A stretch of DNA of 43,861 bases from IMG/VR virus record IMGVR_UViG_3300030106_006417, positions 1 to 43,861 of that record; one strand, given 5' to 3'. The position numbers and the translations under genes were made by a program. Below, in pieces: positions 1,190-18,432 of this stretch (positions within the stretch are counted from its first letter, which is position 1; every line of letters starts with the position of its first letter). Source of the DNA: a virus. Below the pieces are notes generated by a model. It had not been told where the DNA came from. It was given only the letters and a program-made list of their open reading frames with translations, and ran no database searches.

Positions 1190-4100
1190 ATGGGCATGAG
1201 AGACGTAGTTGTTCTAAATACGACATCAAGTAGATTAGAAGTACAGCAAAGTAATGATTCCGTAAGAATTTTAGGAGATAGTAATAATATACTGTCAGTG
1301 GAAAATACTGCAGGCACTCCTATCTTCAGTATAAACGCTCAAAGTCAGTCTGCTGATATTGCAGGAAGTGTAGTAGTAACTGGCGATTTAAGCAGTAGTC
1401 TTGCTTCAAGTTCTAGTTTCGGTAGATTAGAATCTACAACACTTGTTGGAAGTGCAGCTAATATGACTAACACAGATTTTCAACTTGGAATAGTTTCTAG
1501 TTCACAACAAATGGCTTCAGAGATATCTGGTGCTTTCGATAGTGGTTTTGAATTTACAGGCACAATAGGAAAAGCAGTAGGTGTATTTAGTGCTGGTGGT
1601 GCTTTAATAAATGCTAATAAAGAACATACTGGTACTGGTCTTCGAAATGCTGCTTTACAATTTGGTGGAGCTTCTCCGTTAGGTCGATGCACTGAAGAAT
1701 ATAACGGTACTGCCTGGTCTGTGGGTGGAGCAAAAATTACTGCCGCAAACTATATGGCTTCCGCTGGTTACTTAACTTCTGCTGTATCTATTGGTGGCTA
1801 CTCTGATTTAGATGAAACAGAATTATATGATGGTACTACTTGGTCTGAAACTGGTAACTTAAATACTGGAAGATGTCAGTTAGGCGGAACTGGCGTTCAA
1901 AATGCTGCTATAGCTTTTGGTGGTTCAACTCCAAGTACTGTAGGTAATACAGAAACATTTAATGGTTCAACCTGGTCTGAAGTTGCTGATTTAATTACTG
2001 CTAGAAAAAGATTTGGTTCTGCTGGAACTCAAAATTCTGCATTAGCTTTTGGTGGACAGCCGACTTGTAATAATACAGAAGAATGGGATGGTGGAAGTTG
2101 GGCAACTGGTGGTAATTTACTTACGGGTGCTACTGGTATGGCTGGTGGTGGTGTGGGTTCTACTGTCAACGCTGCTATTAGTATTGGTGGTGCGAGTCCG
2201 GGACCCACTACCTGTGTAGAGGAATATAATGGTACAAGTTGGTCAGTTGGTGGTGCTTTAATAAATGGTAGAAACGATTTCGGTGCTGGTGGTTCACAAG
2301 ACTCTATTGTCGCTTTTGGTGGTTGTGTGCCAGCTGCTAGTACTTGTACAGAAGAGTATGATGGTTTCTTACCAGTATCTGCTAGTTTTGGTAAGTTAGT
2401 TGCAACGACAATTTCAGCTGATGCTTCAGGATTAGACAACACTGGTTTATCCGGCACAGTATCTGGTTCAACACAAATAGCAAGTGATGTAAGTGGTTCA
2501 TTTCAAAGTGGATTTGAATTTACAGGTACGATTGGACAAAGAACAGGAGTTTGGTCAAGTGGTACTGCATTACCAACTGCAACAAGAGCTATAGTTGGGG
2601 TTGGTAGTAAAAATGCGGCGATGTTCTTTGGTGGTAATACCGGCGGTTCATCTTTATCAACCAATCATCACTATAATGGTACGAGTTGGTCTGCTGGTGG
2701 TTCTTTGATTACAGCTACACAAGAAGCTTACACTGCTGGTACTGAATATGCTGCTTTATCTGCTGGTGGTAATTTCTCTAATCCATTGGACACCACACAA
2801 GAATATTATGGTGAGACTTGGGCTACTAGTGGTAATTTATCTACTGGTAAAGGATATGGTGCGGGATTTGGACTTCAAAATGCTGCTTTGGCTGTCGGTG
2901 GTCGTAGTGACGGTGCTACGCCTGCGGGCCCTCGAAATATAACCAATACTGAACAATATGATGGTTCAACTTGGTCTGAAGTTGGTGATTTGAATACTGG
3001 AGTTGATGGACTTGCCGGTGCAGGAACTATAAACGCTGGTATTGTCTTTGGTGGGCAGAAAGCGCCCTCACCTTTTCCCATCATAAATTGTACTGAACAA
3101 TATAATGGTTCATCTTGGAGTGTTACAACAGGTATGATTACTTCTAGATTAAATCATGGTGGTTCTGGTTTACAAAATGCTGCTATAGCCTTTGGTGGGC
3201 AACCAGGACCAGTATTTGGAGCAACAACAGAAGAATGGAATGGAACTGCCTGGTCAACATCTGGTGCTTTATCCACTGCTAGATATTCATCTAAAGACTT
3301 CACTGCAGATGCACATAATGCTATAATGGCTGGTGGAAGGAATCCAGGTACTGTGTCTTGTACTGAAACATACACTGGTTTTAACGTATCCGCATCATTT
3401 GGTAGATTAAATGCGAATACAATATCTGGTGATATTTCAAGCGCTGAAGGTGCGAATGATGGTACAGGCATAGTATCAGCTTCATCTCAATTAGCAACTG
3501 ATATTTCAGGTAGTTTCGATAGTGGTTTTGAATTTACAGGCACATTAGGTATACGAGGTGGAGTTTGGTCAGCAGGCGGTGATATGATTATTGGAAAAAT
3601 AAATGCTGTAGGTTTTGGTCTTGAAAATGCCGCACTCAGTTTAGGCGGGCAGAGTCCATCTCAATGCTGTACGGAACACTACAATGGTACTTCGTGGTCA
3701 AGTGGTGGTACACCTGCAAATGGCTGTTACGGTAGAGGCGGTGATGGAACTGAATATGCAGGAATAGTTTTTGGTGGTTATCACCCTGCTCCTAATAGTT
3801 CTGCAACTGAAGAATATTATGGTGAGACTTTTGCTGCTGGTGGTGCTTTGTCTACTGGTAGAGGTTATTTAGGTGGTGCTGGTACACAAAATGCTGCTAT
3901 AGCTTTTGGTGGTTTCACACCATCCGTAACTGATGTAACTGAAGAATACAATGGAACATCTTGGTCATCTGGCGGTTCAATGATTAATACCAGAGGTAAG
4001 ACTGAAGGTGCTGGTGCTCAAAATGCTGGATTAGCTGTTGGTGGTTATAACCCTACAAATCTTAGTGCCACAGAACATTACGATGGAACGGCTTGGTCTG

Positions 4101-7100
4101 CAGGCGGTGATATGAGTGCCGCAAGAAAATCTTTATCTGTAACTGGTATTGAAAATGATGCTCTTAGAGTTGGTGGTTCAGGAGGAACAAAATCAGAGGT
4201 AGAACATTACGATGGTGTTGCTTGGAGTATTGGTGGTTCAAAAAACAATGATAATCATTGTGCTGGAGCTGCTGCGGGGACTAGAACCAATGGATTGTAC
4301 TTTGGTGGGGGTAATCCGAGTACAGGATTACATGAGTGTACAGAACATTATGAGAGTTACGTTGCATCTGCTTCATTTGGTAAAGTAATTGCATCAACAC
4401 TTTCAGGCGATGGTGGTGCTTTAGAAAATCTTATACCTAGTTCTTTTGTTTCAAGCTCAGAACAAATCGCCTCAGATATAAGTGGTTCATTTATTCAAGG
4501 ATTCGAAGTCAGTGGTGATATAAGAACAGATTCAGCAACACCGACTGGCTCAGCCTTAAATGCTTTTGAAGTAAATAGAAGTATGTTGCATGGCAGAACT
4601 TTTCATGCGGCGTTTGGTGATGCAGAAGCTGGTGCTGTGGTTGGTGGAATTAATGCCGCACTCTCTCCTTCGCCAACAAGATTTTTAGATTCAACTCATG
4701 AGTACGATGGGATTAATTATACAGTTGGTGGTGCTTTAATAACAGCACGATTTGCAGGTGGTTCAGCAGGTTCTCAAAATGCTGGTCTCTATGCTGGTGG
4801 TGCAGATGCACCAAATTCAAGCACAAGTTGTAATGAACATTACAACGGTACTTCGTGGTCTGCAGGCGGCACACTACCACAAAACGTCTGTGCTTGGGGT
4901 AACTGTAATGGTACACAAAATGCTGCTCTAATTATAGATGGTCGCTTTCCTAACTCTCCTGCATCACCAGGTCAATGTTCGTTTGAATATGATGGTACAA
5001 CTTGGACTAAAGGTGGGGTTTTAAACATGGAAGGATGTAGGTCTCACTTTGCCTACTCTGGTGTGCAGAATTCAGCATTAATGATTGGTGGTATAGCACC
5101 TACAAGTCCTAATGATGCCGCGGGAACTGTAGAGGAATATGATGGCACAGTTTGGACTTTAGGAACCACACTACCATTAGGTTTCTCCTCAAATGCACGT
5201 GGTATTAAGGGTGGGTATTTAGCTGCAGCTGGTGGTAGTACAAACTCAGCATTAGCGGTTGGTGGAAATCAACATATCAATCAATGTTATGGTATACTTG
5301 CAGCTGAGTATGACGGTACTACTTGGACATATAGACAAAGATTAGGTTCTGGTTTAACATATGGTGCCGGTGCAGGTAGAAGTTTAGACAGAGCATTTTT
5401 CACAGGCGGTAGCTCAACCTATAATCAAACAGGTGAATTCAGTGGTTTGAAGTTTCCAACAACAGACCCGCATGTGGCTTCACAATCAATAAATTACATA
5501 CCAACGGTATCTACAGGTTCCTTTGGTACTTTAAATGTAAGAGAAAGTTTTATCGGTGATGGTAAGAATTTAGATAATATTTTACCCGATACAAGTTGTA
5601 AATTAGTTTACAATGTCAACCAAATAATTGAAGATGTAACAGGTTCATTTGCACATGGTTTTGAGTTTACTGGTAATTTAGGATACAAACCAGGTACTTG
5701 GACATCAGGACCAGATACTGTTGTCAATCATTGTCGTGATGTTGGAAGTAGTGGAACAGCAACTGCTGCTTTATTAGCTGGTGGTACGCACGGAAATGCG
5801 ACAAGTGCTAGTTACGAAACAGAGGAATATGATGGTTCTACTTGGAGTCAATCTACAAGAATGATTGCTAGTAGAAGATGTCATGGTATGTTGGGCAGTC
5901 AAAATTCATCTATGGTTTTCGCCGGTGAAGCTAACAGTAGTTATTTAACTGGTCATGTACAAACTTTCCCTACTTGTTCAGTTGAATTCTACAATGGTTC
6001 AACTTGGTCAGCAGGTCCGAATCTTCCTTCTAATTTTGGAAGCTCAACAGATGGTGTTGGTTGCACACATGATGAAGCATTACTATTATGTTCAAACCAG
6101 TCTTTTTCTTTCAACGGTACATCATTCACAACTGAGGATAAATTACACGTCAATAACACTCATGGAGCAACAGTTGGAAATGTAAACGATGCTATAACAG
6201 GTGGTCGTAATCCAGGCATAAATTTATCAGAAACTTGGGATGGTACAACTTGGTCAATAAATAAACATATGTTGACAAAGAGAAGAGGACATTGTGCTTT
6301 TGGTTCAGGTACGAATATGGCTCTATTTCATGGTAGTGCGCCCGGTGCTGATTCAGGTGGGGCGTCAACAGGCACAGAGATGTGGAATGGAACAACATGG
6401 TCTATAGATGCTAGTATGACCCTTGGGAGAACTTGGCATGGTGGTTCAACTCAATCCCCAACTTCAAATGGTTTATCAGGTTTAGCAGTTGCTGGTGCAG
6501 CACCAACATCTATAAATGGAGCTAAAACTGAACTTTATGAAGGTCATTATCACAATGTGACAGGTTCATTCAAATGTTTAGATGCAGGTGAGGTGTTCAT
6601 AGGTGGTAATCCACAACTTTTTGTAGATACAAGTGATGAATCAATTGAAAATACCGCAAAACTCGAAGTAGAAAAAGAATTCAACATTCCAACATTTACG
6701 ACTTGTGCGGCAACTGCTTCTTACGGAGAAGTTTGGATAAATCCTGAGGATAAGAAACTGTATTTCACTTACGGTGGTAGTTGGACAACTGCTAATCCTC
6801 AATCAGGTGATGATACTAGAAACATTGGTTTTGGAACATCTATTTGTGCTGCGGTTGCTGTTAAGGGAAACGGAAAAACAGAGGAATATAATGGTATTGT
6901 TTGGAGTAGTAATTCACCTACTACAAATCTTAATGTAGCAAGATACTTCGGATGGGCTTGGGGAACCTACGAATCTGCTGTTCTTGCTGGTGGAAATTCA
7001 CCTAATTCACAATGCACAGAAGAGTGGAATGGTACGAGTTGGTCTGCCGGCGGTGCTTTAGGAAATAGTAGATTATGTGATCATGGTGCCGGTAGTAGTG

Positions 7101-7687
7101 TAAATACAGGTTTGATGTTCGGTAAGAATCATCCTTCCAGCGATGGTTCAACAGAATCTTACAATGGAACTACTTGGTCAGACACTGGACATGATTTGAT
7201 AACACCAAGATTCAAAGGCGCTGGTTCTGGTACGGAAAATGCTGCCCTTATGATGGGTGGATGCACTCCATCAAAAGTTGCTTGTACTGAAGAATATAAT
7301 GGTTCATCTTGGGCAAATGGTGGTGCTTTACCATTAGCACTTGCTGGTTATGGAGGACCTGGTGCAGGAACGGGTACACAGAATGACAGTATATTCTACA
7401 CAGGTGGAAGATTTTATCACTCAAGCCTTACTGATACTGGTATGTGTACACCATCATTTTCACAATCCTCAGTTCAGATGTACAATGGTACTTCTTGGTC
7501 AGCAGCTGAATCACTTACATATGGTAGACAATGGTCTGCACTTGCTGGTGGTTCTAGTCGTGGAGCATTAGCAACGGGTGGGTACGCAGGTATTAGTAAT
7601 CAATATCCGGCGGGCTATGAGTATGATACTTCCACTTTTACTGAAGAGTATCACGGACCTGAGATTCACACAGTTGAAATAGGATAA
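1190..7687 (+). CDS. Giant kelch beta-propeller adhesin (six propellers)
   Basis: A 2165-aa protein. The N terminus (MGMRDVVVLNTTSS) matches that of the next gene (MAIRDAIVLNTTGS), which supports the start at 1190; AGGAG lies just upstream. About 110 residues of shaft-like sequence are followed by kelch-type repeats of 40-55 residues with consensus GxQNAAIAFGGxxPxxxxTEEYNGTSWSxGGxLxTAR. I count 36 repeats in six groups of six, each group the size of one six-bladed propeller. Groups are separated by the shaft module (SASFGxLxATxISGD...VSSSxQxAxDISGSFxxGFEFTG) seen in the gene before. A GEVWINPEDKKLYFTY cap-like segment lies before the sixth propeller instead of at the end. There is no enzymatic galactose-oxidase signature, so a receptor or glycan binding tail fibre is the best inference. 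Similar kelch-rich structural proteins occur in marine myophages. Confidence 0.8.
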   Translation: MGMRDVVVLNTTSSRLEVQQSNDSVRILGDSNNILSVENTAGTPIFSINAQSQSADIAGSVVVTGDLSSSLASSSSFGRLESTTLVGSAANMTNTDFQLGIVSSSQQMASEISGAFDSGFEFTGTIGKAVGVFSAGGALINANKEHTGTGLRNAALQFGGASPLGRCTEEYNGTAWSVGGAKITAANYMASAGYLTSAVSIGGYSDLDETELYDGTTWSETGNLNTGRCQLGGTGVQNAAIAFGGSTPSTVGNTETFNGSTWSEVADLITARKRFGSAGTQNSALAFGGQPTCNNTEEWDGGSWATGGNLLTGATGMAGGGVGSTVNAAISIGGASPGPTTCVEEYNGTSWSVGGALINGRNDFGAGGSQDSIVAFGGCVPAASTCTEEYDGFLPVSASFGKLVATTISADASGLDNTGLSGTVSGSTQIASDVSGSFQSGFEFTGTIGQRTGVWSSGTALPTATRAIVGVGSKNAAMFFGGNTGGSSLSTNHHYNGTSWSAGGSLITATQEAYTAGTEYAALSAGGNFSNPLDTTQEYYGETWATSGNLSTGKGYGAGFGLQNAALAVGGRSDGATPAGPRNITNTEQYDGSTWSEVGDLNTGVDGLAGAGTINAGIVFGGQKAPSPFPIINCTEQYNGSSWSVTTGMITSRLNHGGSGLQNAAIAFGGQPGPVFGATTEEWNGTAWSTSGALSTARYSSKDFTADAHNAIMAGGRNPGTVSCTETYTGFNVSASFGRLNANTISGDISSAEGANDGTGIVSASSQLATDISGSFDSGFEFTGTLGIRGGVWSAGGDMIIGKINAVGFGLENAALSLGGQSPSQCCTEHYNGTSWSSGGTPANGCYGRGGDGTEYAGIVFGGYHPAPNSSATEEYYGETFAAGGALSTGRGYLGGAGTQNAAIAFGGFTPSVTDVTEEYNGTSWSSGGSMINTRGKTEGAGAQNAGLAVGGYNPTNLSATEHYDGTAWSAGGDMSAARKSLSVTGIENDALRVGGSGGTKSEVEHYDGVAWSIGGSKNNDNHCAGAAAGTRTNGLYFGGGNPSTGLHECTEHYESYVASASFGKVIASTLSGDGGALENLIPSSFVSSSEQIASDISGSFIQGFEVSGDIRTDSATPTGSALNAFEVNRSMLHGRTFHAAFGDAEAGAVVGGINAALSPSPTRFLDSTHEYDGINYTVGGALITARFAGGSAGSQNAGLYAGGADAPNSSTSCNEHYNGTSWSAGGTLPQNVCAWGNCNGTQNAALIIDGRFPNSPASPGQCSFEYDGTTWTKGGVLNMEGCRSHFAYSGVQNSALMIGGIAPTSPNDAAGTVEEYDGTVWTLGTTLPLGFSSNARGIKGGYLAAAGGSTNSALAVGGNQHINQCYGILAAEYDGTTWTYRQRLGSGLTYGAGAGRSLDRAFFTGGSSTYNQTGEFSGLKFPTTDPHVASQSINYIPTVSTGSFGTLNVRESFIGDGKNLDNILPDTSCKLVYNVNQIIEDVTGSFAHGFEFTGNLGYKPGTWTSGPDTVVNHCRDVGSSGTATAALLAGGTHGNATSASYETEEYDGSTWSQSTRMIASRRCHGMLGSQNSSMVFAGEANSSYLTGHVQTFPTCSVEFYNGSTWSAGPNLPSNFGSSTDGVGCTHDEALLLCSNQSFSFNGTSFTTEDKLHVNNTHGATVGNVNDAITGGRNPGINLSETWDGTTWSINKHMLTKRRGHCAFGSGTNMALFHGSAPGADSGGASTGTEMWNGTTWSIDASMTLGRTWHGGSTQSPTSNGLSGLAVAGAAPTSINGAKTELYEGHYHNVTGSFKCLDAGEVFIGGNPQLFVDTSDESIENTAKLEVEKEFNIPTFTTCAATASYGEVWINPEDKKLYFTYGGSWTTANPQSGDDTRNIGFGTSICAAVAVKGNGKTEEYNGIVWSSNSPTTNLNVARYFGWAWGTYESAVLAGGNSPNSQCTEEWNGTSWSAGGALGNSRLCDHGAGSSVNTGLMFGKNHPSSDGSTESYNGTTWSDTGHDLITPRFKGAGSGTENAALMMGGCTPSKVACTEEYNGSSWANGGALPLALAGYGGPGAGTGTQNDSIFYTGGRFYHSSLTDTGMCTPSFSQSSVQMYNGTSWSAAESLTYGRQWSALAGGSSRGALATGGYAGISNQYPAGYEYDTSTFTEEYHGPEIHTVEIG
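1579..7659 (+). repeat. Kelch repeat array, 36 blades in six groups
   Basis: Protein-level tandem repeats, divergent in DNA. Approximate propeller limits are 1579-2367, 2543-3381, 3557-4357, 4555-5448, 5690-6551 and 6841-7659. Each has six blades ending in a TEEYNGTSW-like strand. Propellers 1-3 are close to consensus; 4 and 5 have longer loops and weaker FGG motifs. The sixth starts with a shortened blade, and its last blade carries extra sequence, so closure of that ring may be atypical. Counts are by eye. Confidence 0.75.
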
Positions 7688-7700
7688 AAAATAATTATGA

Positions 7701-7708
7701 TATTTATA
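7701..7708 (+). promoter_or_regulatory. Candidate late promoter element TATTTATA
   Basis: TATTTATA lies in the 41-bp gap, 20 bases before the ATG at 7729, and is followed by ACGGAG as ribosome binding site. The same octamer sits in the gaps before 14007, 21881 and 24537. It is the reverse complement of the T4 late promoter TATAAATA, so its direction of action is uncertain. Confidence 0.35.
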
Positions 7709-7728
7709 TTAAATAACGGAGACTCTAA

Positions 7729-10700
7729 ATGGCCATAAGAGATGCCATAGTTCTAAATACTACAGGTAGTAGTTTTGAAGCTTTACAGTCTGGTGATACA
7801 GTAAGAGTTAAAGGAGACTTATTGGTTCAAGACTCCTCTGGCACATCACTTCTTTCTGTTGGCACTTCCGATACTACTGTTACTTTAGGCGGTAGTGTAA
7901 CTAGTAGTGCTATAATTAGTGGAAGTTCAACCTCAACTGCTTCTTTTGGAAGATTTGTTGCCACAACATATACTGGTGATGCTAGAGAAATAGCCTCTAC
8001 GCTCCCACGCTCCGCTGGTATAATTTCAGGTGCAGCTCAAATTAGAGATGATGTAAGTGGTAGTTTTGTAAGTGGATTTAGTTTTGGAGCAACTGCTGAC
8101 CAACTTTATGTGGGCGTAAGTGGTTCTAACTCAGAGCATTCTGCTAGTGTTTCAGGCAGTACAAGAGCAATGGCCGCTAGTGGTTCAGATTTAACACATT
8201 TAAAAAGTGATGAGATTGGACACATTAGAGGTATAGTTGGCGCCGGTACTTTTACAGCCGGAGATGCTTTAGGAACTGGTCGTGGTTATGTATTAGGTGC
8301 AGGTTCTCAGAATGCTGCACTAGCCTTTGGTGGATATGGCCCAAGTAATACAAGAAATAAAACGGAACATTATAATGGAACAAGTTGGTCAGAAGGTGGT
8401 AACTTAAATCAAAATCATCACAATGGACAGATGGGTGCCGGTTGGGGAGTTGAGTATGCCGCTATAAAAACTGGTGGAAATGGTCCTGGTCTTACTACTT
8501 CCACAGAAGTATACAATGGTACTTCTTGGTCTGAAATACAAAATAAAACTGTCGGACAATGCTGTGGTGGGGGTGCTGGTACTCAAAACGCTGGTGTTGC
8601 TTTTGGTGGAAACCCATCACCTAATACTACAGAACATTGGAATGGAACTTCGTGGAGCACTGGTGGTACAATGATTGCTGGTGGTGATAGAATAAATTGT
8701 GGAGCTGGTTTAGAAAATGCTGCTCTAGCTGCCGGTGTAGGTGGTTCACCTACTCCTAATACTTGCACAGAGGAGTATGATGGTACGAGTTGGTCTGCTG
8801 GTGGAATTCTAAGTGATAAAAAAAGTCGTGCCGGTACTGCGGGAACACAGAATGCAGCTATTGCAATTGATGGACTTAATGGTTCATCCGATGATGTTTC
8901 TCTACATTACGATGGTGCTAGTTGGTCAGTGGGTGGTAGTTCACTTCACAATAAATTTGATGTTGCTGCAGTTGGTGTACAGTCAGCCGCATTGAAGTTT
9001 GGTGGAACATATTTTCAAACCTGTACAGAACAATACAATGCTAATTACACAAACACAGGTAGTTTCGGTAGAATAGAAGCTGGTTATATCGTAGGTAATG
9101 CAGAAGATATAAAAGGACAAATTCCAAGAGATGCTGGATTGGTTACAAGTTCTGCTCAATTAGCTACTGATATATCAGGTAGTTTTACAAGTGGATTTAA
9201 TTTTGGTGCACCAGCGGATAGTCATTTTATAGGCGTTAGTGGTTCAACACCTACGCCAGGTGTAAGTGGTTCTGAAACTCACTACAGTAGTAGTGTCGGA
9301 CATCCTGCTGAAATATATGCAAGTGGTTCAGCATCTGGTTCCGACCACTCATTTCAATTGGTTGATGAATTAGGACACATTAAAGGTGTGGTTGAAGCAG
9401 GTGCGTGGTCATTAGGTCCAAATATAAATAATCCAAGACAAGATAATGCCGGTGCCGGAGTTCAAAATGCCGCACTATCCTTCGGTGGTTATCCTCCAAC
9501 TGGCGATACAGAAATTTACAACGGCACTACGTGGTCTGAACTTAATGATTTAAACTTAGCTAGAGCAAATGGTGGTGGTTTAGGAACTGTAGATGCCGCA
9601 CTGTATATGGGTGGACAGCCCACTATATCATGCACTGAGGAGTGGAATGGTACATCCTGGTCTGAGGTTACGAATATGACTACTGCTAGAGCTAATAATC
9701 AAGGAGTTGGTACTCAGAATGCTGGATTGATATTTGGTGGTAATCCAGGTATCGCGACAACAGAAGAATATAATGGTACTAGTTTCTCTGCAGGTGGTTC
9801 ATTAATTACAGCAATTTTCGGAGCCGGTGGTGCAGGAATTCAAAATGCGGCATTGAAATTTGGTGGTAGCACTCCATCAGTATCTAACACTACAGAACAC
9901 TACAACGGAACATCTTGGACTGCTGGTGGTAATTTAATCACTGCTAGAACTTATCTAAAAGGTGCGGGTGTAGAAAATAGTGCTCTTGCAGTTATGGGGC
10001 TTCCAGCAGCTGGTACGCTTACAGAACATTATGACGGTACTTCTTGGTCTGCTGGTGGTAGTCTGAACATAGCGAGATCTAGTGGTGCTGCTACAGGTGT
10101 TTCACACGCTGCTATAGCTATGGGTGGAGCACCAGCAACCTCTCATAGAGAATCAACTGAGTTATATGAAGGAAGTTTTTCCAACTCAGGTAGTTTCGGT
10201 AGAATAGAAGCAACAATATTAAAAGGGAATATAATCGGTTTGCAAAACTATTTAGTAAGAAGTGATAACATAGTTTCAGGTTCAGCTCAGATTAGAGTTG
10301 ATGTCAGTGGTAGTTTTGATGAGGGATTTAGTTTTGGTGCTAGCAATGCCCGTTTATTTGATGGGGTAAGTGGTTCAAGATTTACGCCTGGCGTAAGTGG
10401 TTCTGAACAATTTTACAGTTCAAGCTTTGGACACGTCACAGAACATATTGGAATAAGTGGTTCACATCCAAGCGGTGGTGCAGATTACTCACAACTACTT
10501 GAATCTGAAGCTGGACATATCAGAGGGAAAATCGTCAGTGGAGTTTGGTCTTCAGGTGGTGCTTTAATCACTGCTAGAAAAGTTGGTTCATTGGGTACAG
10601 GTGTAGAAAATGCAGCTCTAGCAGGAGATATACGAGGAGCACCTAATAATGACGCAGAAGAATATAATGGTACTGCTTGGTCGGTAACTGCCGATATGAT

Positions 10701-13700
10701 AAACGCGAGAGGTTTTGGTGCCGCAGCCGGAACTCAAAATGCTTCATTTTTTGCCGGTGGTACAACACCCGGTACATATGCCGTACCTACGGAAGATTAC
10801 AATGGAGTTTCATTTTCAAATATTGCGAATAGTAATCTAAACACTGGTAGACAAAAAATTGGTGGTGCTGGCTCTCAGAATGCTGGATTAGTATTTGGTG
10901 GCACACCATCGGCGCCAAAACAACAGACAGAAGAATGGAATGGTGTTGTTTGGACTGAAGCTGGTGCTACCGCATATTTAAGTGATGCTGGTTATAATAT
11001 TGTTGGAGCTGGTATTCAAAATGCCGCCCTAGCTATTGGTGGTCAACCATCATCTGCTAGAAAAGTAAGCACTGAACATTATGATGGTACTTCTTGGCGT
11101 GCCGGTGGTACTTTGATTACTACTAACGGGCATAAAAGAAGTGGTGCTGGAACTGAAAATGCTTCTTGGGTTGCGTTTGGTCAAGCTCCAGCTAATAGTA
11201 CACATACAGAGGTTTACGATGGTATTGCTTGGACATCTACTGCTAATGCAATTACAGCTAGATCATTGGCTGGTGCCGCCGGAACAGGCGCAGTTGGGTT
11301 AGCTTTTGGTGGATATAATCCAGGTCAGTTGAGTTGTACAGAACATTGGGATGGTGGTTTTGAAAATACAGGTAGTTTTGGTAGAATAGAATCAGCTCGT
11401 TTTGTTGGAGATGCCAGTGATTTAAGTAGTAGTTTAGGCTTAGTTGAATCTTCGGCAACTATTGCTAGTGATATAAGTGGTTCATTTTCATCTGGTTTCA
11501 ATATTGCTGTAAGAAAAGGTGGTTCAGCAAAAGATTTAATAAATGACGAAGGAGCAATCTTAACAGACCCAACAAGATGGTGTTGGACTTCATCTTCATT
11601 CAACGACCCACAGAATTATTCACTGAGAAGTACATTAAAACCCAGAGGACATTTTCAAGTCGATAGAAGGCATATAAACGCGGGAAGTGGTTCACTTGCT
11701 ACTTGGAGTCAAGGCACACCATTAATTAGCAGAAAAAGAACTCTAATTGGTGGTTCTACAGGACCTAGAGATGCTATTATGCTAGTAGGCGCAGGGCAGG
11801 GTGAATATGGCGGCTGTGGTAGAACTGAACTTTACGATGGTGTTGCTTGGTATGAAGGAAAATTTCAAAGTAATGGTAGAAGAGGTAAGATAGCCTTTGG
11901 AACACAGAATGCAGGAGTGGCACATGGTGGCAGAAGTATACATACATATAAGAATGATACAGAGAATTGGGATGGTATTAGTTGGACTACTGTAATATCA
12001 CATAACAGTGCCGTATCATGTTCAATAGATGGAATAGGATTTGGAACTCAAAATGATGGATTAATAGTATCATTTGCTTCAGGCAGTCCATCCTCTTGTC
12101 AAGACATTTGTCATTATGATGGAACTACTTTTTCTCGAGGTGCTGAAATGGTATATTCACAGGCTGCTGCCGGTGGTGCTGGTGACTCGGATTGTGCTAT
12201 TATTTTCGGAGGAAACCCTTCAGGAAATAGAAAACAAACACAGGAATATAATGGTACTAGTTGGGTTCAAAGAGCAAATCTTACATTTCCTGCAACTTTG
12301 AAATCAGGCGCTGGTGAAAATTACAGAAGGTCATGTCAGGCATTAGGTTTTGGTGGATTGACTCCAGGAAGAACAGTTAATGCAGAAGTTTTTGATTCAA
12401 CTATTAACTCTTGGTCAACAACTGCCGCACTAAGTAAAGGAAGAGGATATGCTGGAGTTCAAGCAGGTAATAATCAGTCCGCCTACGCCGTAGGTGGATT
12501 TCATCCCGCACCAGATTTCGATGGGGCAAATGCAGGAACTTTAGAAGTAGAGTATTACGATGAACATCTTATCGGTACTGGTTCATTCGGAAGTGTTATT
12601 GCTGGACAATTTTGGGGTGATGGAACAGGTGTATCTGCTTCATTATTCAGCAAAATATTATCAGGCTCACTATCAAGTTCTGCTCAAATAGCAGACGATA
12701 TTTCAGGTTCTTGGTCTAGTGGTATTGTAGCAAAAGGAGATATCATACCAGGTATTACCGATGGTGTTTGGTCAACTGCGAATTGTATACCCGGCCGAAG
12801 TACACCCAATGCTGCTGCTGGTGGATGTTTTAGAAGTAATACGATGTATGGCAGTGGTTACGCCCCCTCCCAACCCAAAGATACTTGGCTATACAATGAT
12901 ATAAGTTGGCGAGCTGCTGGAGAATTATTTAATCAGACTAATCCAACCTATAATGCAGAAATAGTTGGTGGTGAAACAAACTTTATGTTTCTTGGTGGAG
13001 ACCAATCTTTAGATAGAAATCAAATTTACGATGGCAAAGCTTGGTATCAAAATTCTAATTTACCAAATCCTCATTCCGTAACTTTGGGTGTTGCGGGTGC
13101 GGGTGATCCGAAAGTTGAAACTCATATCACAGGTAAAAGTCCTGCTTGTAACGGTCTCCATCTAATATGGAATACATTAGCTTGGTCAGTAGGTCCAGGT
13201 TTATCAATGGAACAGACATCACATAATTCAGTCGGTGGTGGTTCAGCAGTTTTGAATTATGGTGGTATGAACCCCAGTGCTGGATGTGAAATAGTACAGC
13301 GGTGGGATGGTACAACTTGGGCTCACGGACAACCTATGAATGTAGGACAACGCTTTGGTGCTGGTTTCGGTTCAGGTGTCAATGATGCACTTATCAATAC
13401 TAATTGTCATAATTTGTCACCTGCTCACAGTGGTACTCAGGTTTGGAATGGTACTAGTTGGAAAATTGGGAATGCTTCAACATTTAATAGGAAAATACCA
13501 ACTAATTTTGGTGGTGGAAACGGAACGCATGGGCTTGCAACTGGAAATCAACCATCTCCAACATCATTTGAAGAATGGAATGTATATTATTGTAATGATG
13601 CTACAGGTTCATTTGGAGCAGTTCAGCCAAAATCAACCTTTAGAGTAACTAATTTTACAGCAACGGGATCAGTTTTTAGATTACCAATTTTCAATGAACA

Positions 13701-13953
13701 TGATACAAGTGCACATTACTTTGTTTCAAGATCAAAACAACCAGGTGAGATGTGGTTTAACAAATCAAGAAATTCAATATTTTATACTTGGGAAAGTTCT
13801 AGTATTTCAACAAGTATGTGCGGAAGTTCAGGTGAAGGTGATCCAAACAATCAATACACTCAATCATTCAAAGTCTCAACTGTTATAACCTCACAAATAT
13901 CTTCAAGTAGATATACGGGAAGTTGGGGTGAGATTGAACAAGAATACATTTAG
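7729..13953 (+). CDS. Giant kelch beta-propeller adhesin (five propellers)
   Basis: A 2074-aa paralogue of the preceding gene, sharing the N terminus and the kelch consensus (NAALAFGG...TEHYNGTSWS.GG). The first ~180 residues contain ISGSSTSTASFGRF, identical in style to the shaft repeats of the gene at the window start. I count 30 blades in five groups of six, separated by linkers that hold the shaft module. The first three also carry a longer insert (GVSGS...GSE.HYSSS.GH...ELGHIKG.V) that the 2165-aa paralogue lacks. The fourth and fifth propellers are more degenerate. The protein ends in a cap with GEMWFNKSRNSIFYTW. It is probably a second tail fibre or a partner fibre subunit. The start is set by ACGGAG seven bases before ATG and by homology to the paralogue. 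Confidence 0.8.
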   Translation: MAIRDAIVLNTTGSSFEALQSGDTVRVKGDLLVQDSSGTSLLSVGTSDTTVTLGGSVTSSAIISGSSTSTASFGRFVATTYTGDAREIASTLPRSAGIISGAAQIRDDVSGSFVSGFSFGATADQLYVGVSGSNSEHSASVSGSTRAMAASGSDLTHLKSDEIGHIRGIVGAGTFTAGDALGTGRGYVLGAGSQNAALAFGGYGPSNTRNKTEHYNGTSWSEGGNLNQNHHNGQMGAGWGVEYAAIKTGGNGPGLTTSTEVYNGTSWSEIQNKTVGQCCGGGAGTQNAGVAFGGNPSPNTTEHWNGTSWSTGGTMIAGGDRINCGAGLENAALAAGVGGSPTPNTCTEEYDGTSWSAGGILSDKKSRAGTAGTQNAAIAIDGLNGSSDDVSLHYDGASWSVGGSSLHNKFDVAAVGVQSAALKFGGTYFQTCTEQYNANYTNTGSFGRIEAGYIVGNAEDIKGQIPRDAGLVTSSAQLATDISGSFTSGFNFGAPADSHFIGVSGSTPTPGVSGSETHYSSSVGHPAEIYASGSASGSDHSFQLVDELGHIKGVVEAGAWSLGPNINNPRQDNAGAGVQNAALSFGGYPPTGDTEIYNGTTWSELNDLNLARANGGGLGTVDAALYMGGQPTISCTEEWNGTSWSEVTNMTTARANNQGVGTQNAGLIFGGNPGIATTEEYNGTSFSAGGSLITAIFGAGGAGIQNAALKFGGSTPSVSNTTEHYNGTSWTAGGNLITARTYLKGAGVENSALAVMGLPAAGTLTEHYDGTSWSAGGSLNIARSSGAATGVSHAAIAMGGAPATSHRESTELYEGSFSNSGSFGRIEATILKGNIIGLQNYLVRSDNIVSGSAQIRVDVSGSFDEGFSFGASNARLFDGVSGSRFTPGVSGSEQFYSSSFGHVTEHIGISGSHPSGGADYSQLLESEAGHIRGKIVSGVWSSGGALITARKVGSLGTGVENAALAGDIRGAPNNDAEEYNGTAWSVTADMINARGFGAAAGTQNASFFAGGTTPGTYAVPTEDYNGVSFSNIANSNLNTGRQKIGGAGSQNAGLVFGGTPSAPKQQTEEWNGVVWTEAGATAYLSDAGYNIVGAGIQNAALAIGGQPSSARKVSTEHYDGTSWRAGGTLITTNGHKRSGAGTENASWVAFGQAPANSTHTEVYDGIAWTSTANAITARSLAGAAGTGAVGLAFGGYNPGQLSCTEHWDGGFENTGSFGRIESARFVGDASDLSSSLGLVESSATIASDISGSFSSGFNIAVRKGGSAKDLINDEGAILTDPTRWCWTSSSFNDPQNYSLRSTLKPRGHFQVDRRHINAGSGSLATWSQGTPLISRKRTLIGGSTGPRDAIMLVGAGQGEYGGCGRTELYDGVAWYEGKFQSNGRRGKIAFGTQNAGVAHGGRSIHTYKNDTENWDGISWTTVISHNSAVSCSIDGIGFGTQNDGLIVSFASGSPSSCQDICHYDGTTFSRGAEMVYSQAAAGGAGDSDCAIIFGGNPSGNRKQTQEYNGTSWVQRANLTFPATLKSGAGENYRRSCQALGFGGLTPGRTVNAEVFDSTINSWSTTAALSKGRGYAGVQAGNNQSAYAVGGFHPAPDFDGANAGTLEVEYYDEHLIGTGSFGSVIAGQFWGDGTGVSASLFSKILSGSLSSSAQIADDISGSWSSGIVAKGDIIPGITDGVWSTANCIPGRSTPNAAAGGCFRSNTMYGSGYAPSQPKDTWLYNDISWRAAGELFNQTNPTYNAEIVGGETNFMFLGGDQSLDRNQIYDGKAWYQNSNLPNPHSVTLGVAGAGDPKVETHITGKSPACNGLHLIWNTLAWSVGPGLSMEQTSHNSVGGGSAVLNYGGMNPSAGCEIVQRWDGTTWAHGQPMNVGQRFGAGFGSGVNDALINTNCHNLSPAHSGTQVWNGTSWKIGNASTFNRKIPTNFGGGNGTHGLATGNQPSPTSFEEWNVYYCNDATGSFGAVQPKSTFRVTNFTATGSVFRLPIFNEHDTSAHYFVSRSKQPGEMWFNKSRNSIFYTWESSSISTSMCGSSGEGDPNNQYTQSFKVSTVITSQISSSRYTGSWGEIEQEYI
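8244..13590 (+). repeat. Kelch repeat array, 30 blades in five groups
   Basis: Approximate propeller limits are 8244-9045, 9403-10176, 10541-11358, 11694-12569 and 12763-13590. Blades follow the pattern of a glycine/alanine-rich strand with NAA.AFGG, a loop, then TE.YNGTSW. The inserted linkers between propellers are 60-120 residues. Counts and limits are by eye from the translation. Confidence 0.75.
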
Positions 13954-14006: not shown

Positions 14007-14276
14007 ATGGCTTATTATTATATTGTACCAACTGGCAAAAAAGGATTTATAACCCATGAAGATAATGAAAGAGCTCATGTTGCTAATTATCCTGGTGATA
14101 TTTTCGTAACTGAAAATTCAGAATGGGCTACACGTGTCGGAGCGGTTGAAAAAACAAAGGCTGAAGCACAACAAATTAGTGACGATTGGATAGATGCTCA
14201 TAATGCTGAACTTACAAGTAGTGCAATTTGGGATGCTGATACAATGGAGAGTAGTTCATATTCTGTTATACCATAA
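14007..14276 (+). CDS. Small protein of unknown function (89 aa)
   Basis: Not recognised. The 89-aa product starts MAYYYIVPTGKKGF and has a mixed, slightly acidic composition with no signal peptide or membrane segment. The middle (TKAEAQQISDDWIDAHNAE) looks helical. A strong CGGAGG Shine-Dalgarno lies seven bases before the ATG, and a TATTTATA element lies further upstream, so it is probably expressed late as its own unit. Its place directly after two fibre genes would fit a small virion accessory or fibre chaperone, but nothing in the sequence proves that. Confidence 0.7.
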   Translation: MAYYYIVPTGKKGFITHEDNERAHVANYPGDIFVTENSEWATRVGAVEKTKAEAQQISDDWIDAHNAELTSSAIWDADTMESSSYSVIP

Positions 14277-14333
14277 AAAAAATCGTATTTGGGTTATTTA
14301 ATAGATAGTTATAATTAAATTAAGGAAAAAGTT

Positions 14334-15068
14334 ATGAGTGACATGCAAAGAGATGAAAAGAATACCGATATCGCTGTAGCTGAAGATTTGAAGCCAATTC
14401 TAAATGTATTGGGTGAAGAAGATTCTAAGGCTATTGCTGTTCTAAGGGATGAATTAGTAGACAATTGGAAAAAGAAACAAATATTTCGTACTGAAACAGA
14501 GATGAGAATATCAGTATTGAATGATGCTAAGCATCCAACAGACGCCTCAAAGTATTGGCAATCTGTGCGTGAGATGGGTGCTATGTTTGATGCCTTAATG
14601 GGTCTTTCTTTTGATATGAGAAAAAATGCTGTAGTTGCGGAAAGGTTACAAAGAAAAATGATGAAGGCTGAGAGAAAAGGTGATGATTTAGGAATGAGGG
14701 AAATTCAGATAGACATAGATCAAAATTTGTGGGAGAAAGCCAATATGCGTTCTACGGCACATGATAGGGTACGTGAACTCAAACTTTGGTCTAAGATAAA
14801 AGATGAATTAGATAATGGTACTTTTGATAATGAAAATGTTGATGCTCATCAAGCAGTCTCCTATTCTCATATTCTAACTAATCGTGTAAAATCGTTAAGT
14901 GAACATTCTCAACCAGCAGAAGTTGTAAATGCTGCTGGGCCACTACAAACAGTTCAAAGGTTGATGACAAAAGATGGTAAATTAAAACAATTTGATGGTA
15001 AAGCACCAGAACTGCCAGTCAAAGAAAGAGAACCTCAGTTAACAGATGGCGAAGATAAAAATGAGTAA
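14334..15068 (+). CDS. Helical protein of unknown function (244 aa)
   Basis: Not recognised. The 244-aa product is rich in charged residues, with long predicted helices (around residues 90-160, including MRKNAVVAERLQRKMMKAERKGDD) and an acidic/proline-rich tail (PELPVKEREPQLTDGEDKNE). No catalytic motif, signal or membrane segment is visible. AAGGAAAAAG precedes the ATG. It ends two bases before the halogenase-like gene and so may be cotranscribed with it. A scaffold, assembly or regulatory role is possible but unsupported. Confidence 0.75.
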   Translation: MSDMQRDEKNTDIAVAEDLKPILNVLGEEDSKAIAVLRDELVDNWKKKQIFRTETEMRISVLNDAKHPTDASKYWQSVREMGAMFDALMGLSFDMRKNAVVAERLQRKMMKAERKGDDLGMREIQIDIDQNLWEKANMRSTAHDRVRELKLWSKIKDELDNGTFDNENVDAHQAVSYSHILTNRVKSLSEHSQPAEVVNAAGPLQTVQRLMTKDGKLKQFDGKAPELPVKEREPQLTDGEDKNE

Positions 15069-15070
15069 AA

Positions 15071-16570
15071 ATGAAAAAAATTTTAGTAGCCGGTGGAGGA
15101 CTATCAGGTTTTATTAGTGCTTTATATGTAAAAAAAGTTTTTACAAATGTAGAGGTTTCTTTGGTACATTCTTCTGATATAGGTATATTAGGAGCTGGTG
15201 AAGGAACCACACCACAGTTCAAAAAACTTCTTGATATACTCAAAATAGATAAAAGAGACTTTCTAAAGAAAACCAAAGGAACATTAAAACTTGGAATACA
15301 GTTTGATAATTGGAATGGTGATAAAGACTCTTACGTGCATGGATTTGGTGATACAGTTTTTAAACCTGAGTCTAAAGATAGAACCGAAGAGGAAAATAGA
15401 CTTGCACTAATTCATTATGGTATATCTAAATCCATACATGTAGATAAATTATCTTGTTTAAAGTCTCTCATAGATAATTTTAAATCATCACTGTTTTTAT
15501 CTAATCAAGAACAAAATATAACTACTGATTCATACATTGATGCTTTACACTTGGATGCTCATTTGTCAGCTGAATATTTAGAGAATATTGCTAAAAGTAG
15601 AGGTGTAAAAGTTATTGAAGATAAAATTTTAGACTTTGAATTAAATCAAGATGGTTTCATTACAAAAGTTATCGGTGATAGTGAAAACTATGATTGTGAT
15701 TTCGTATTCGATTGTACAGGCTTCGCAAGAATGATTATTGGTAAAAAATATGAGACTGAGTGGGTATCCTATAAAAATCATTTAACATTAGATTCAGCAT
15801 TTTCATTTCAATTACCGATAGATTCGGAAAAAATAAAACCTGCTACAATTGCCACCGCTATGAATTCGGGATGGATGTGGAAGATACCATTAACTTACAG
15901 ATTTGGTTGTGGTTACATATATGACAGTAATTTTATAACTGAAGAGGAAGCTATAAAAGAAGTTGAACTTCACTTAGACACTCAGATAGAAATTGTGAAT
16001 AGATTTAAATTTAATGCCGGTAGATATGAGAATAGCTGGGTGAAAAATTGTTGTGCTATAGGCTTGAGTTCAAATTTTACAGAGCCACTTGAAGCAACAT
16101 CAATTTGGTTACAGTTTTTATCCTTATCTAAGTTGATGGAGTGTAACTTTTTTGATTTATGCAAAGACAAAAATATTGTTGATGATTATAATAACTATGT
16201 TGCTGACCTATCAGATTTGACTATGAACTTTCTTTATTTCCACTATATGACAAAAAGAAATGATACTCCATTTTGGAAAACTTACAGTGAGAGAACAACT
16301 ATCCCAAAGCAATTGAAATCTCTAATTGATTTTTGGAATCAGAAAGCTCATACTCCGCATGATGAAGATATGTTGGGAGATGTTTTTGGGGTAGCATCGT
16401 ATCTAATGGTTGGACATGGAAATAAGTTTTGGAACAAAAAATCATCAAAAGATTATTGTGATGTTAGAAATTTAGATAATGTAGAAAAGTTTGTATCAAA
16501 TATTCCAAAAATAGAAAACTTTCTTTTAGAAAAGTCTATTACACACGAAGATTTTTTAAGGTATTTATAA
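15071..16570 (+). CDS. Flavin-dependent tryptophan-halogenase-like protein
   Basis: A 499-aa protein, close to the usual length for the PrnA/RebH family. An FAD-binding GGGLSG lies at residues 8-13 and GAGEGTTP at 41-48. K73 in GTLKLGIQF lies where the family's catalytic lysine forms the hypohalous-acid adduct. The signature WxWxIP is intact as WMWKIP (268-273), and PLEATSIW follows near residue 340. Known members use FADH2, oxygen and halide to chlorinate or brominate tryptophan, free or within peptides; the substrate here is unknown. It heads an overlapping operon with five 2OG oxygenases, a glycosyltransferase and a sulfotransferase, and its stop overlaps the next ATG (TAATG). No flavin reductase is in the window, so host FADH2 would be needed. 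Tryptophan-halogenase-like genes are known from marine myophages. A related flavin monooxygenase activity cannot be excluded. Confidence 0.88.
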   Translation: MKKILVAGGGLSGFISALYVKKVFTNVEVSLVHSSDIGILGAGEGTTPQFKKLLDILKIDKRDFLKKTKGTLKLGIQFDNWNGDKDSYVHGFGDTVFKPESKDRTEEENRLALIHYGISKSIHVDKLSCLKSLIDNFKSSLFLSNQEQNITTDSYIDALHLDAHLSAEYLENIAKSRGVKVIEDKILDFELNQDGFITKVIGDSENYDCDFVFDCTGFARMIIGKKYETEWVSYKNHLTLDSAFSFQLPIDSEKIKPATIATAMNSGWMWKIPLTYRFGCGYIYDSNFITEEEAIKEVELHLDTQIEIVNRFKFNAGRYENSWVKNCCAIGLSSNFTEPLEATSIWLQFLSLSKLMECNFFDLCKDKNIVDDYNNYVADLSDLTMNFLYFHYMTKRNDTPFWKTYSERTTIPKQLKSLIDFWNQKAHTPHDEDMLGDVFGVASYLMVGHGNKFWNKKSSKDYCDVRNLDNVEKFVSNIPKIENFLLEKSITHEDFLRYL

Positions 16571-17184
16571 TGTTTATTTTTAGAAAAGAAAAGTCAATAC
16601 CTGATGATTTATGTGATGCTTTTATAGAAACCTTTGAAACATGTCCAGAAAGTTATAGACATCGTGGTGTGGTTTCAAACAAAAAAGATGGAGTTTATCA
16701 AGATAAAGATGTAAAACTTTCTACCGATATTTCTTTTAATCCTTCTATGGAAACAGATTCATTTTGGGGGGATAAAATAAGCTACACAGTAAATACTTTA
16801 TACGATGCTATGACGGAGTATAGAAGTAGATATCACGTTGCTTTCAATAATATTGATAAGTTCAAAGTAGGAAATCTTTTTAATATGCAAAAGTATGAAC
16901 CAGGTGAAGCATACTACAAATATCATTGTGAAAGAGCTGGTATGAAACATTCCGATAGAATTTTAGTGTGGATGATTTATCTGAATAATGTTTATGATGG
17001 TGGGGAAACTGAATTTTTTTACTACCATCATTATGAACCTGCCAGAAAAGGAACATTACTGATATGGCCAACAGATTGGACTCACCTACATAGGGGTATA
17101 TTAAGTAATACAGAAAATAAATATATATTGACAGGTTGGTACACTTTTTTAACTGAAGAGGAGAAAGAAAATGGAAAGGATTAG
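16570..17184 (+). CDS. 2OG-Fe(II) oxygenase, prolyl-4-hydroxylase-like
   Basis: A 204-aa protein with the C-terminal double-stranded beta-helix pattern of the P4H superfamily: KYEPGEAYYKYHCE, YLNNVYDGGETEF, KGTLLIWP, LHRG, then NKYILTGW. Likely iron ligands are H119, E121 and H174, with K184 in place to bind 2-oxoglutarate. The second ligand is glutamate (HxE) where most members have aspartate (HxD), which is unusual but occurs in some active enzymes. The family couples oxidative decarboxylation of 2OG to hydroxylation of a peptide or small molecule. Its ATG shares a base with the halogenase stop and it overlaps the next oxygenase by 14 bp, so translation is probably coupled. The substrate is unknown. 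Confidence 0.85.
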   Translation: MFIFRKEKSIPDDLCDAFIETFETCPESYRHRGVVSNKKDGVYQDKDVKLSTDISFNPSMETDSFWGDKISYTVNTLYDAMTEYRSRYHVAFNNIDKFKVGNLFNMQKYEPGEAYYKYHCERAGMKHSDRILVWMIYLNNVYDGGETEFFYYHHYEPARKGTLLIWPTDWTHLHRGILSNTENKYILTGWYTFLTEEEKENGKD

Positions 17185-17821
17185 TGGACTTAGTTATGGA
17201 GTAAGACCGTGTAATTTTAATGACTTCTACTATTTCAGAAATGCACTATCGGATGAGATGATTGAAGAAATTCATAAAATGGTTTACGACAATAATTATG
17301 AATTTAAAAAGGGTGGAACTGGTTATGCTGAAGCTGGTGGTATAGATCAGGATAATTCTAATAACAGAGATATTGCTTACATTCCGTGGGTAGAACATTC
17401 AAATATGATTTACACATATTTGGAAAGTTGTGTAATTAAAGCAAATCAAGAAATATTTCAGTTTGATATTCAGTATGTAACCGACTTATTACATTACGTT
17501 ATATATCCGACACCAAATCAGCCTGATACATTAGGACAGGTTAGGGAAACAGGTGGTCATTTGGACTGGCATATGGACATCGGTCAAGGTATGGTGAACA
17601 GAAGAAAATTAGCAACAACTGTTCAACTAAGTGACCCAAATGATTACGAAGGCGGTGATTTTCAAATATGGTATGGTGGAAGTGAAGGATTTATAACTTT
17701 ACCAAGAGAAAAAGGTGATATACTTATATTCCCAAGTTTTTATTTACATAGAGTAACTCCAATAACAAAAGGTGAGAGAAGAGCACTTGTGTTTTGGACA
17801 GGAGGAGAACCATTTAGATGA
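17171..17821 (+). CDS. 2OG-Fe(II) oxygenase, PKHD/PiuC-like
   Basis: A 216-aa protein with a complete facial triad: H134 and D136 in GGHLDWHMD, H193 in SFYLHRV, and R203 in KGERRALVFW as the 2OG anchor. GGDFQIWYGG and KGDILIFPS are the expected core strands. The overall pattern is that of PKHD-type hydroxylases such as PiuC, though the lineage assignment is by eye. It overlaps the upstream oxygenase by 14 bp and the downstream one by 4 bp (ATGA). The start at 17171 is supported by GAAGAGGAG upstream. The substrate is unknown; hydroxylation of a peptide, nucleotide sugar or other small molecule are all possible. Confidence 0.88.
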   Translation: MERISGLSYGVRPCNFNDFYYFRNALSDEMIEEIHKMVYDNNYEFKKGGTGYAEAGGIDQDNSNNRDIAYIPWVEHSNMIYTYLESCVIKANQEIFQFDIQYVTDLLHYVIYPTPNQPDTLGQVRETGGHLDWHMDIGQGMVNRRKLATTVQLSDPNDYEGGDFQIWYGGSEGFITLPREKGDILIFPSFYLHRVTPITKGERRALVFWTGGEPFR

Positions 17822-18432
17822 GTTTAGAATTTATATCAAATGAACATATGTTGTTTCCAACACCACTCTGGCAAGTTCAGATTAAAGGTGTGGATAATGA
17901 TGCGATCAAAAAATATGTTTACCATTTAAGGGATACTACAGAGGGAGTTGTTATATCTAATAGAGGTGGATGGCATTCAAAAGATATTTTGGAGCCAATT
18001 CCTGAAGCTTTGGAAAATTTATTTAGTAATTTCCAATCATTCGTAAATCAGTATTGTGCACAAATAACAGGTTTGAATCAATTAAAGATTGGAAATTTTT
18101 GGTTTAATATTAATTCGAAATACGATTACAATAGAACACACGATCATCAAAATAGTATTTTATCTGCTGTGTATTACATTGATGCTATAGGAGATAATAT
18201 TGGTTCGTTTGTCGCTGAAAGAGATGATTCAGCAGAGTTTTTTCTTGGCACTTATAAAAATATAACTCCATTCACATCTACAAGTTTTTCAATTACTCCA
18301 TTAACAGGATTTGCTTTCATAATGCCGTCTTGGGTTTTACATTCTGTTGAACAGAACTTTGAGGATAGGGATAGAATTTCATTAGCTGTCAATTTTATAA
18401 GACATGACATTGAGGAAAACCCTTATGTCTAA
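17818..18432 (+). CDS. Putative 2OG-Fe(II) oxygenase (TIGR02466-like), copy 1
   Basis: A 204-aa protein starting close to MLFPTPLWQ, the hallmark N terminus of the TIGR02466/2OG-FeII_Oxy_5 group. The core motif THDHQNSILSAVYYID (H108, H110) is followed by MPSWVLHSVEQN (H175) and DRISLAVNF (R185), giving the His/His and Arg positions expected for metal and 2OG binding. It is the most divergent of the three members of this group here and lacks the KGKLGD tail shared by the next two. ATGA overlap with the preceding gene implies coupled translation. Activity and substrate are untested for this group in phages. Confidence 0.8.
   Translation: MSLEFISNEHMLFPTPLWQVQIKGVDNDAIKKYVYHLRDTTEGVVISNRGGWHSKDILEPIPEALENLFSNFQSFVNQYCAQITGLNQLKIGNFWFNINSKYDYNRTHDHQNSILSAVYYIDAIGDNIGSFVAERDDSAEFFLGTYKNITPFTSTSFSITPLTGFAFIMPSWVLHSVEQNFEDRDRISLAVNFIRHDIEENPYV

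Follow-up and report, generated by a model that had tools for sequence, protein, structure and literature searches.

Six-bladed kelch propellers in series along the shafts of putative long fibres of a T4-like phage, with replacement of whole propellers between relatives

The virus contig IMGVR_UViG_3300030106_006417 of the IMG/VR database, analysed here over its complete record length of 43,861 bases and referred to below as the window, carries three fibre genes, the second and third of which encode two giant proteins, A and B. These hold eleven groups of six kelch blades each, arranged in series between copies of a shaft repeat that they share with the first gene, and in two related genomes a whole propeller is found replaced while the shaft on either side of it is conserved. 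The proteins are probably long virion fibres of a T4-like phage, in which the propellers would serve as binding heads inserted into the shaft and exchangeable by recombination. The elements of the three genes are the following (coordinates in the window, strand, description):

1-1152, + strand: fibre gene 1; 5′ end lost at the contig start, C-terminal 383 amino acids (aa) visible
100-264, 289-441, 466-618 and 667-804, + strand: the four full shaft modules of gene 1, joined by ISGSxTSTGSF links
1190-7687, + strand: fibre gene 2, encoding protein A (2165 aa), intact frame
1190-1393, + strand: N-terminal domain of protein A (MGMRDVVVLNTTSSRLEVQQ...), the probable attachment end
1394-1564, + strand: shaft module A-S1
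2375-2533, 3395-3541, 4370-4519 and 5510-5680, + strand: the other shaft modules of protein A
1577-2362, + strand: propeller A1, six blades, by blade hidden Markov model (HMM), alignment and AlphaFold2
2543-3382, + strand: propeller A2, six blades, by blade HMM and alignment
3554-4354, + strand: propeller A3, six blades, by blade HMM and alignment; modelled with both flanking shaft modules (3389-4507)
4553-5482, + strand: propeller A4, six blades, by blade HMM and alignment
5687-6538, + strand: propeller A5, six blades, by blade HMM (one blade half detected) and alignment
6557-6790, + strand: distal tip module of protein A (VTGSF...GEVWINPEDKKLYFTY)
6767-7669, + strand: propeller A6, six blades, C-terminal behind the tip module, by blade HMM and alignment
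7729-13953, + strand: fibre gene 3, encoding protein B (2074 aa), intact frame
7933-8088, + strand: shaft module B-S1
9052-9207, 10186-10338, 11368-11508 and 12574-12735, + strand: the other shaft modules of protein B
8089-8241, 9208-9396, 10339-10536 and 11509-11694, + strand: extra segments of protein B leading from shaft to propeller, not present in A
8242-9036, + strand: propeller B1, six blades, by blade HMM and alignment
9397-10173, + strand: propeller B2, six blades, by blade HMM and alignment
10537-11358, + strand: propeller B3, six blades, by blade HMM and alignment
11695-12552, + strand: propeller B4, six blades, by blade HMM and alignment
12757-13596, + strand: propeller B5, five blades by HMM and a divergent first blade by alignment
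13600-13953, + strand: distal tip module of protein B (ATGSF...PGEMWFNKSRNSIFYTW)

The blades are repeats of about 45 residues with the consensus EEYNGTSWSAGGALITARYGLAGAGTQNAGLAFGG, in which GG is followed by Y and then by W, the pattern of kelch repeats. An iterated blade HMM recovered 36 of them in protein A (6, 6, 6, 6, 6, 6) and 29 in protein B (6, 6, 6, 6, 5), and the single blade that it missed, the first of the last group of B (GVWSTANCIPGRST...), aligns with the other first blades. The 66 blades in 11 groups of six that had been counted by hand in a sequence-only reading of this DNA are thus confirmed, 65 by HMM and the last by alignment, as is their division into 6+5 propellers once the first blade of B5 is accepted from the alignment. 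Multiples of six hold in the window and also in its relatives: among the blade groups of 73 IMG/VR loci, 196 have six blades, 25 have twelve and nine have other counts, several of these at contig ends. The twelve-blade genes (about 600 aa, seen in L036, L045, L046, L057, L067, L069, L073, L076, L077 and L081) have no long linker, consist of two propellers back to back and mostly adjoin single-propeller genes of about 320 aa. Within a group, the first unit lacks TEEYNG and starts directly with the W strand, and the last unit is followed by an extra lone TEEY-like strand in most groups (more weakly in A4 and B4); five whole units and one split unit therefore make up six blades and close the ring, the strands of both chain ends lying in one blade. 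Matches of degenerate DNA motifs for the blade (8) and the shaft (7) were absent from each of 100 dinucleotide shuffles, a control that concerns the DNA matches of these two motifs only.

The predicted fold agrees with the blade pattern. AlphaFold2, run on A1 with an alignment of the 11 window propellers, gave two good models and three poor ones out of five, with 24 strands, a predicted local distance difference test score (pLDDT) of 84.4 and a predicted template modelling score (pTM) of 0.85, and for the shaft-propeller-shaft stretch around A3 (34 sequences) it gave five consistent models, with 24 propeller strands and a pLDDT in the propeller mostly of 82-97. Comparison of the A1 model by Foldseek and VIA-align 2 placed it with six-bladed kelch domains, namely that of NS1-BP (5yy8; Z 29.2 over 246 residues), the designed SAKe proteins (Z up to 28.7) and Keap1 (about 27.7). 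Structure prediction had been put forward with the hand count as a check, and its outcome, 24 strands and a match to closed six-bladed kelch rings over the whole propeller length, is favourable; the propeller is predicted to be a closed ring of four-stranded blades. Homology to the kelch beta-propeller superfamily is also apparent from the propeller profile, which matches KLHL2 at 2.4e-15, and Keap1 chains as well, among PDB sequence profiles. Since no Pfam family was matched in A, B or the visible part of gene 1, and since the PHROGs family that matches both giants, phrog_27227 (5.8e-166 and 1.4e-157), is unnamed, of unknown function and without a described architecture, the kelch identity is founded on our own profiles, the PDB sequence profiles and structure. 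The phage propellers have in common with Keap1, KLHL2, KLHL12, NS1-BP and SAKe the fold of six four-strand blades, the GG/Y/W signature, the closure of the ring by N- and C-terminal strands and variable loops on one face. They differ from these cellular and designed domains in being viral and Pfam-negative and in standing five or six in series per chain, each between shaft repeats. Readings of NGT as glycosylation sequons and of EEY as a sulfation site, for which a sulfotransferase in the gene block could be invoked, were set aside because cellular kelch blades conserve the same positions for structure.

The shaft module is a repeat of about 50 residues, (S)TGSFG...GD...SSAQIA.DISGSF..GF.F, with five copies in A, five in B and four full copies in gene 1, where a partial module precedes position 99 and a distal tip module (GNIWINNSDGSLNFAY) follows the full ones. 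It had been claimed that the module of the giants is the repeat of the gene at 1-1152 and runs there without interruption, and both points are correct, the modules of gene 1 being linked through.G.ISGSSTSTGSF; the gene is cut, however, and it is to its visible part that the repeat structure and the absence of any propeller apply. Protein A consists of an N-terminal domain, five pairs of shaft module and six-bladed propeller, the tip module and a sixth, C-terminal propeller, and protein B of an N-terminal domain, one intact ISGSSTSTASFG link, five shaft-propeller units and the tip module, the latter being common to A, B, gene 1 and their relatives. The earlier description of a shaft module between groups holds in general but fails for A6, which is preceded by the distal tip module. 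Similarly, the placement of the propeller exactly at the ISGSSTSTGSF point is strictly true of A, in which propellers occupy the position of the link, typically after GFEFTGTIG and before SASFG, but not of propellers 1-4 of B, before which an extra 54-69 residues stand between GFxF and the propeller. The extra segments are SGS-rich, and three of the four copies end in GHIRG/GHIKG.

Modules homologous to this repeat are also found in phage proteins with Peptidase_S74 at their end, and the repeat is in this respect common to A, B and other phage fibres. The fibres of L084 and L087, with a ISGSSTSTGSFG shaft and a Peptidase_S74 end, have the same module including SSAQIATDISGSFTAGFEFTG-KISGSSTSTGSFG; unlike those of A and B, their joints are empty or contain other segments, without propellers. 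In trimeric fibres and spikes, Peptidase_S74 serves as an intramolecular chaperone. Pfam found no C-terminal S74 chaperone in A or B, but many phage fibres are without one and its presence is not required for a protein to be counted as a fibre. In L114 (9701-15055) and L115 (9638-13906), which belong to the same shaft family, segments of other kinds stand between ISGSxTSTGSF motifs, one of them resembling by eye a cupredoxin-like domain, and because of these segments the motif may be suggested to be a general joint for inserted domains.

That the propellers are inserted into the shaft, as had been proposed, is borne out by two relatives retrieved with a hand-made shaft DNA pattern, IMGVR_UViG_3300017909_003024 (G001) and IMGVR_UViG_3300030330_005136 (G002), in which the same junction holds either a short link or a propeller. 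In G001 three paralogous fibre genes stand in a row, and in G002 the first is complete and the second is cut by the contig end. Both resemble the window in their type of N-terminal domain, shaft, propellers and tip, G001 also in its downstream gene block; they are unlike it in the number and position of their propellers and in that several shaft joints are empty. A propeller at some joints and a short ISGSATSTGSF link at others are found within one protein: the order of shaft modules (S) and propellers (P) is S S S S P S P S P, tip, P in gene 2 of G001 and S S P S P S S P S P in its gene 3, and the first junction of gene 2, filled in the window, is empty in G001 and G002. The N-terminal domain of protein A is closest to that of gene 2 of G001/G002 (38/74 identical) and that of protein B to that of gene 3 of G001 (35/70 identical), so that A pairs with gene 2 and B with gene 3. 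A tree of the 50-column shaft modules was mostly unresolved except for G001/G002 pairs.

The same two relatives provide the evidence for replacement. In gene 2 their DNA is 90.9% identical through aa 298, with which shaft S4 ends, and about 45% identical across propeller 1 (36% identity at the protein level); with aa 612, where S5 begins, identity recovers to 81%. As judged from this alignment, a whole propeller has been exchanged, its borders coinciding exactly with those of the shaft modules. In gene 1 the terminal propeller has likewise been replaced between conserved flanks (45% protein identity), and similarity drops also where propeller 4 starts, the point at which G002 ends. Between the two genomes, identity is 63% for propeller 2 and 73-100% for the shafts. 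Since propeller 1 of G001 is closer to propeller 2 of G002 (53%) than to its positional counterpart, the comparison suggests that propellers have moved between positions. Many pairs among the wider 73 loci have alignable flanks and unalignable propellers (e.g. L050 vs L075), and other pairs do not; the loss of a propeller in L013 relative to L009 is only apparent and due to a contig end. From these comparisons, the heads look like exchangeable cassettes.

Where the blades vary is also informative. Over 1684 family blades, entropy is highest at the residue that follows GG and at the two that follow ..TAR, and the same three positions are the most variable among the window's own 65 blades. These presumably lie in the same two loops, after GG and after the conserved R, as those that hold the top-side or Nrf2-site residues of Keap1. 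The latter include Tyr334, Arg380, Arg415, Arg483, Tyr525 and Tyr572 (PMC12266349, PMC9150106). The loop variability would therefore support a binding face, at which it points without showing one. The sequence-only reading had seen in these proteins an adhesin with binding heads at intervals along a fibre, an interpretation that is strengthened by whole-head replacement together with loop variability, and receptor binding would then be a function of the propellers.

In the model that we favour, each fibre would be made up of an N-terminal attachment domain, a repeated and presumably trimeric shaft and a distal tip, and at a joint between shaft repeats a complete six-bladed kelch propeller would take the place of the short ISGSxTSTGSF link. 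Such an insertion is sterically possible, because the chain enters and leaves a kelch ring by strands that adjoin in the same closing blade. The propellers would project from the shaft as binding heads whose variable top-face loops recognise host-surface molecules, and different heads may recognise different ligands, which is plausible because the 11 propellers of the window differ enough from one another (pairwise protein identity at most 48%). The conserved shaft repeats on either side would let recombination between phages exchange whole propellers, and such recombination may have caused the replacements described above; a new binding repertoire would result, with the fibre undisturbed. That the fibres are in addition multi-specific, a rack of different kelch heads with the shaft joint as a standard socket for adding, removing and exchanging them, we give an even chance. 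Several points weigh against the proposed model. Propeller 3 is conserved at 86% between G001 and G002, so not every head turns over. The exchange is seen between these two relatives and not in the window phage itself, and both are metagenome assemblies of repeat-rich genes in which mis-joining is possible, although their reading frames are intact. The trimeric shaft has to be set against a monomer model, the single-chain shaft-propeller-shaft prediction, in which the pLDDT of the shaft is mostly below 50. The presence of the proteins in virions and binding by the propellers are both things that we infer, and no clear homologue was found among 50,697 isolate phage records.

Part of this evidence could be read differently. 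If the propellers were decorative or structural, so that they lengthen, stiffen or shield the fibre and only the tip module binds the receptor, as in many tail fibres, one would expect the tip module to be conserved among fibre genes, as it is, and the propeller pair that is 86% identical between relatives would fit as well. However, a spacer does not need whole propellers to be replaced while shaft and N-terminus are conserved, nor variability that peaks in the loops that bind ligand in Keap1, and we consider such a role unlikely. Another possibility is that the propellers attach weakly and transiently to particles, mucilage or glycans and aid the search for a host without selecting it, like the immunoglobulin-like domains on some phage heads. 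Avidity would be favoured by eleven heads per gene pair, and genes with one propeller, like double propellers, are common among environmental phages. These findings overlap with what specific receptor binding would give; the heads have low identity to one another, which speaks against a binder of a wholly generic kind, and we consider this explanation improbable.

Instead of adsorption fibres, the proteins might also form whiskers or decoration filaments of the tail or head, a suggestion that draws on phage CBB, whose kelch proteins include one present in the virion and whose tail bears unusual hair-like structures. The passage concerned describes these kelch proteins as being without obvious homologues in Rak2-like relatives and does not identify them as the hairs (PMC5259590). 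With the shaft family being that of S74-type fibres and the genes lying near tail genes, whiskers seem very unlikely. Least credible, to the point of being negligible, is that the blades are a repeat artefact of assembly expansion or low-complexity sequence, given the low identity among the 11 propellers, frames that are open throughout and groups in multiples of six in 73 other loci.

The favoured model, of long fibres with exchangeable heads, is set in a genome that encodes a tail sheath, a tail tube, a baseplate hub and a gp32-like single-stranded DNA-binding protein, and further a RecA/UvsX-like protein, ThyX and tRNA-Ala. Because of these genes, which combine a contractile tail with T4-type replication functions, the window phage is classified on gene content as a T4-like myovirus. 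By gene neighbourhood, the kelch fibre locus lies near the sheath, tube and baseplate hub genes, which are downstream of it. The closest match to the sheath is that of Microcystis phage Mel-JY01 (45% identity over the full length), and Flavobacterium immuto phages are likewise among the best matches. Similar propellers are also found on other genome contigs, among them those of two Flavobacteriaceae bins and of two single-cell genomes of SAR11, although bins may hold stray phage contigs. Two conserved genes follow the fibre genes:

14007-14276, + strand: p89, a small conserved gene directly 3′ of the fibre genes and a common neighbour of kelch fibre genes
14334-15068, + strand: p244, a conserved neighbour of kelch genes

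Among 75 kelch gene clusters with enough downstream sequence, 43 have p244 at most 900 nucleotides behind them; isolate phages contain no strong match to it or to a propeller, and p244 is possibly an assembly factor or chaperone. The whole block behind the fibre genes (14007-21442) comprises p89, p244, a halogenase-like gene, five 2-oxoglutarate-Fe(II) oxygenases, a glycosyltransferase-like gene (recognised by eye) and the sulfotransferase, in an order mostly kept in G001 and in many uncultured kelch phages whose propellers have different linkers (e.g. L106 340-5493). The tryptophan-halogenase-like gene within the oxygenase block (15071-16570, Pfam E 1e-104) is weakly matched in two of 73 related loci. 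Beside ThyX lie two large genes for which no convincing family was found: the product of 38559-39860 has a homologue in Microcystis phage Mel-JY01 (28%), and 39857-41830 has by eye an HNH-like stretch.

At least 588 relatives of the kelch propeller family are present in IMG/VR among 599 candidate stretches listed. Relatives were retrieved with a propeller alignment and with the shaft DNA pattern; whole-protein tblastn and single-protein patterns found no relatives. Kelch domains have been reported before in phages, among others for a virion protein of phage CBB (PMC5259590) and for one cyanophage P-HM2 gene (PMC3037559), and long-read data from marine viruses show an enrichment of kelch repeats (PMC9238414). 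The kelch proteins of Pectobacterium phage CBB, of Pseudomonas phages PhiPA3, Noxifer and PS119XW and of Burkholderia phage BcepSaruman have the kelch fold too, some being annotated as virion proteins, and share 14-22% sequence identity with the window in structural matches; we found no description of a serial arrangement in a fibre shaft for them. In the openly licensed literature, no description was found of serial whole propellers in a fibre shaft or of their exchange. The presence of kelch domains in phage structural proteins was therefore already known, and the novelty lies in the serial, socket-like array and the replacement of single heads.

A known tail fibre usually has a single receptor-binding tip, and changes in host range are mostly pictured as changes of that tip. 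Five or six propellers in series, with the shaft and the other heads retained when one is replaced, would be a different way of keeping several binding options at once. Because the family is abundant in IMG/VR and has no clear homologue among isolate records, it may represent a widespread means of attachment that has escaped culture collections. The propellers are self-contained and of standard size, so direct tests of binding should be simple. If the model is true, host range in these phages would evolve by swapping one head at a time while the others are kept.

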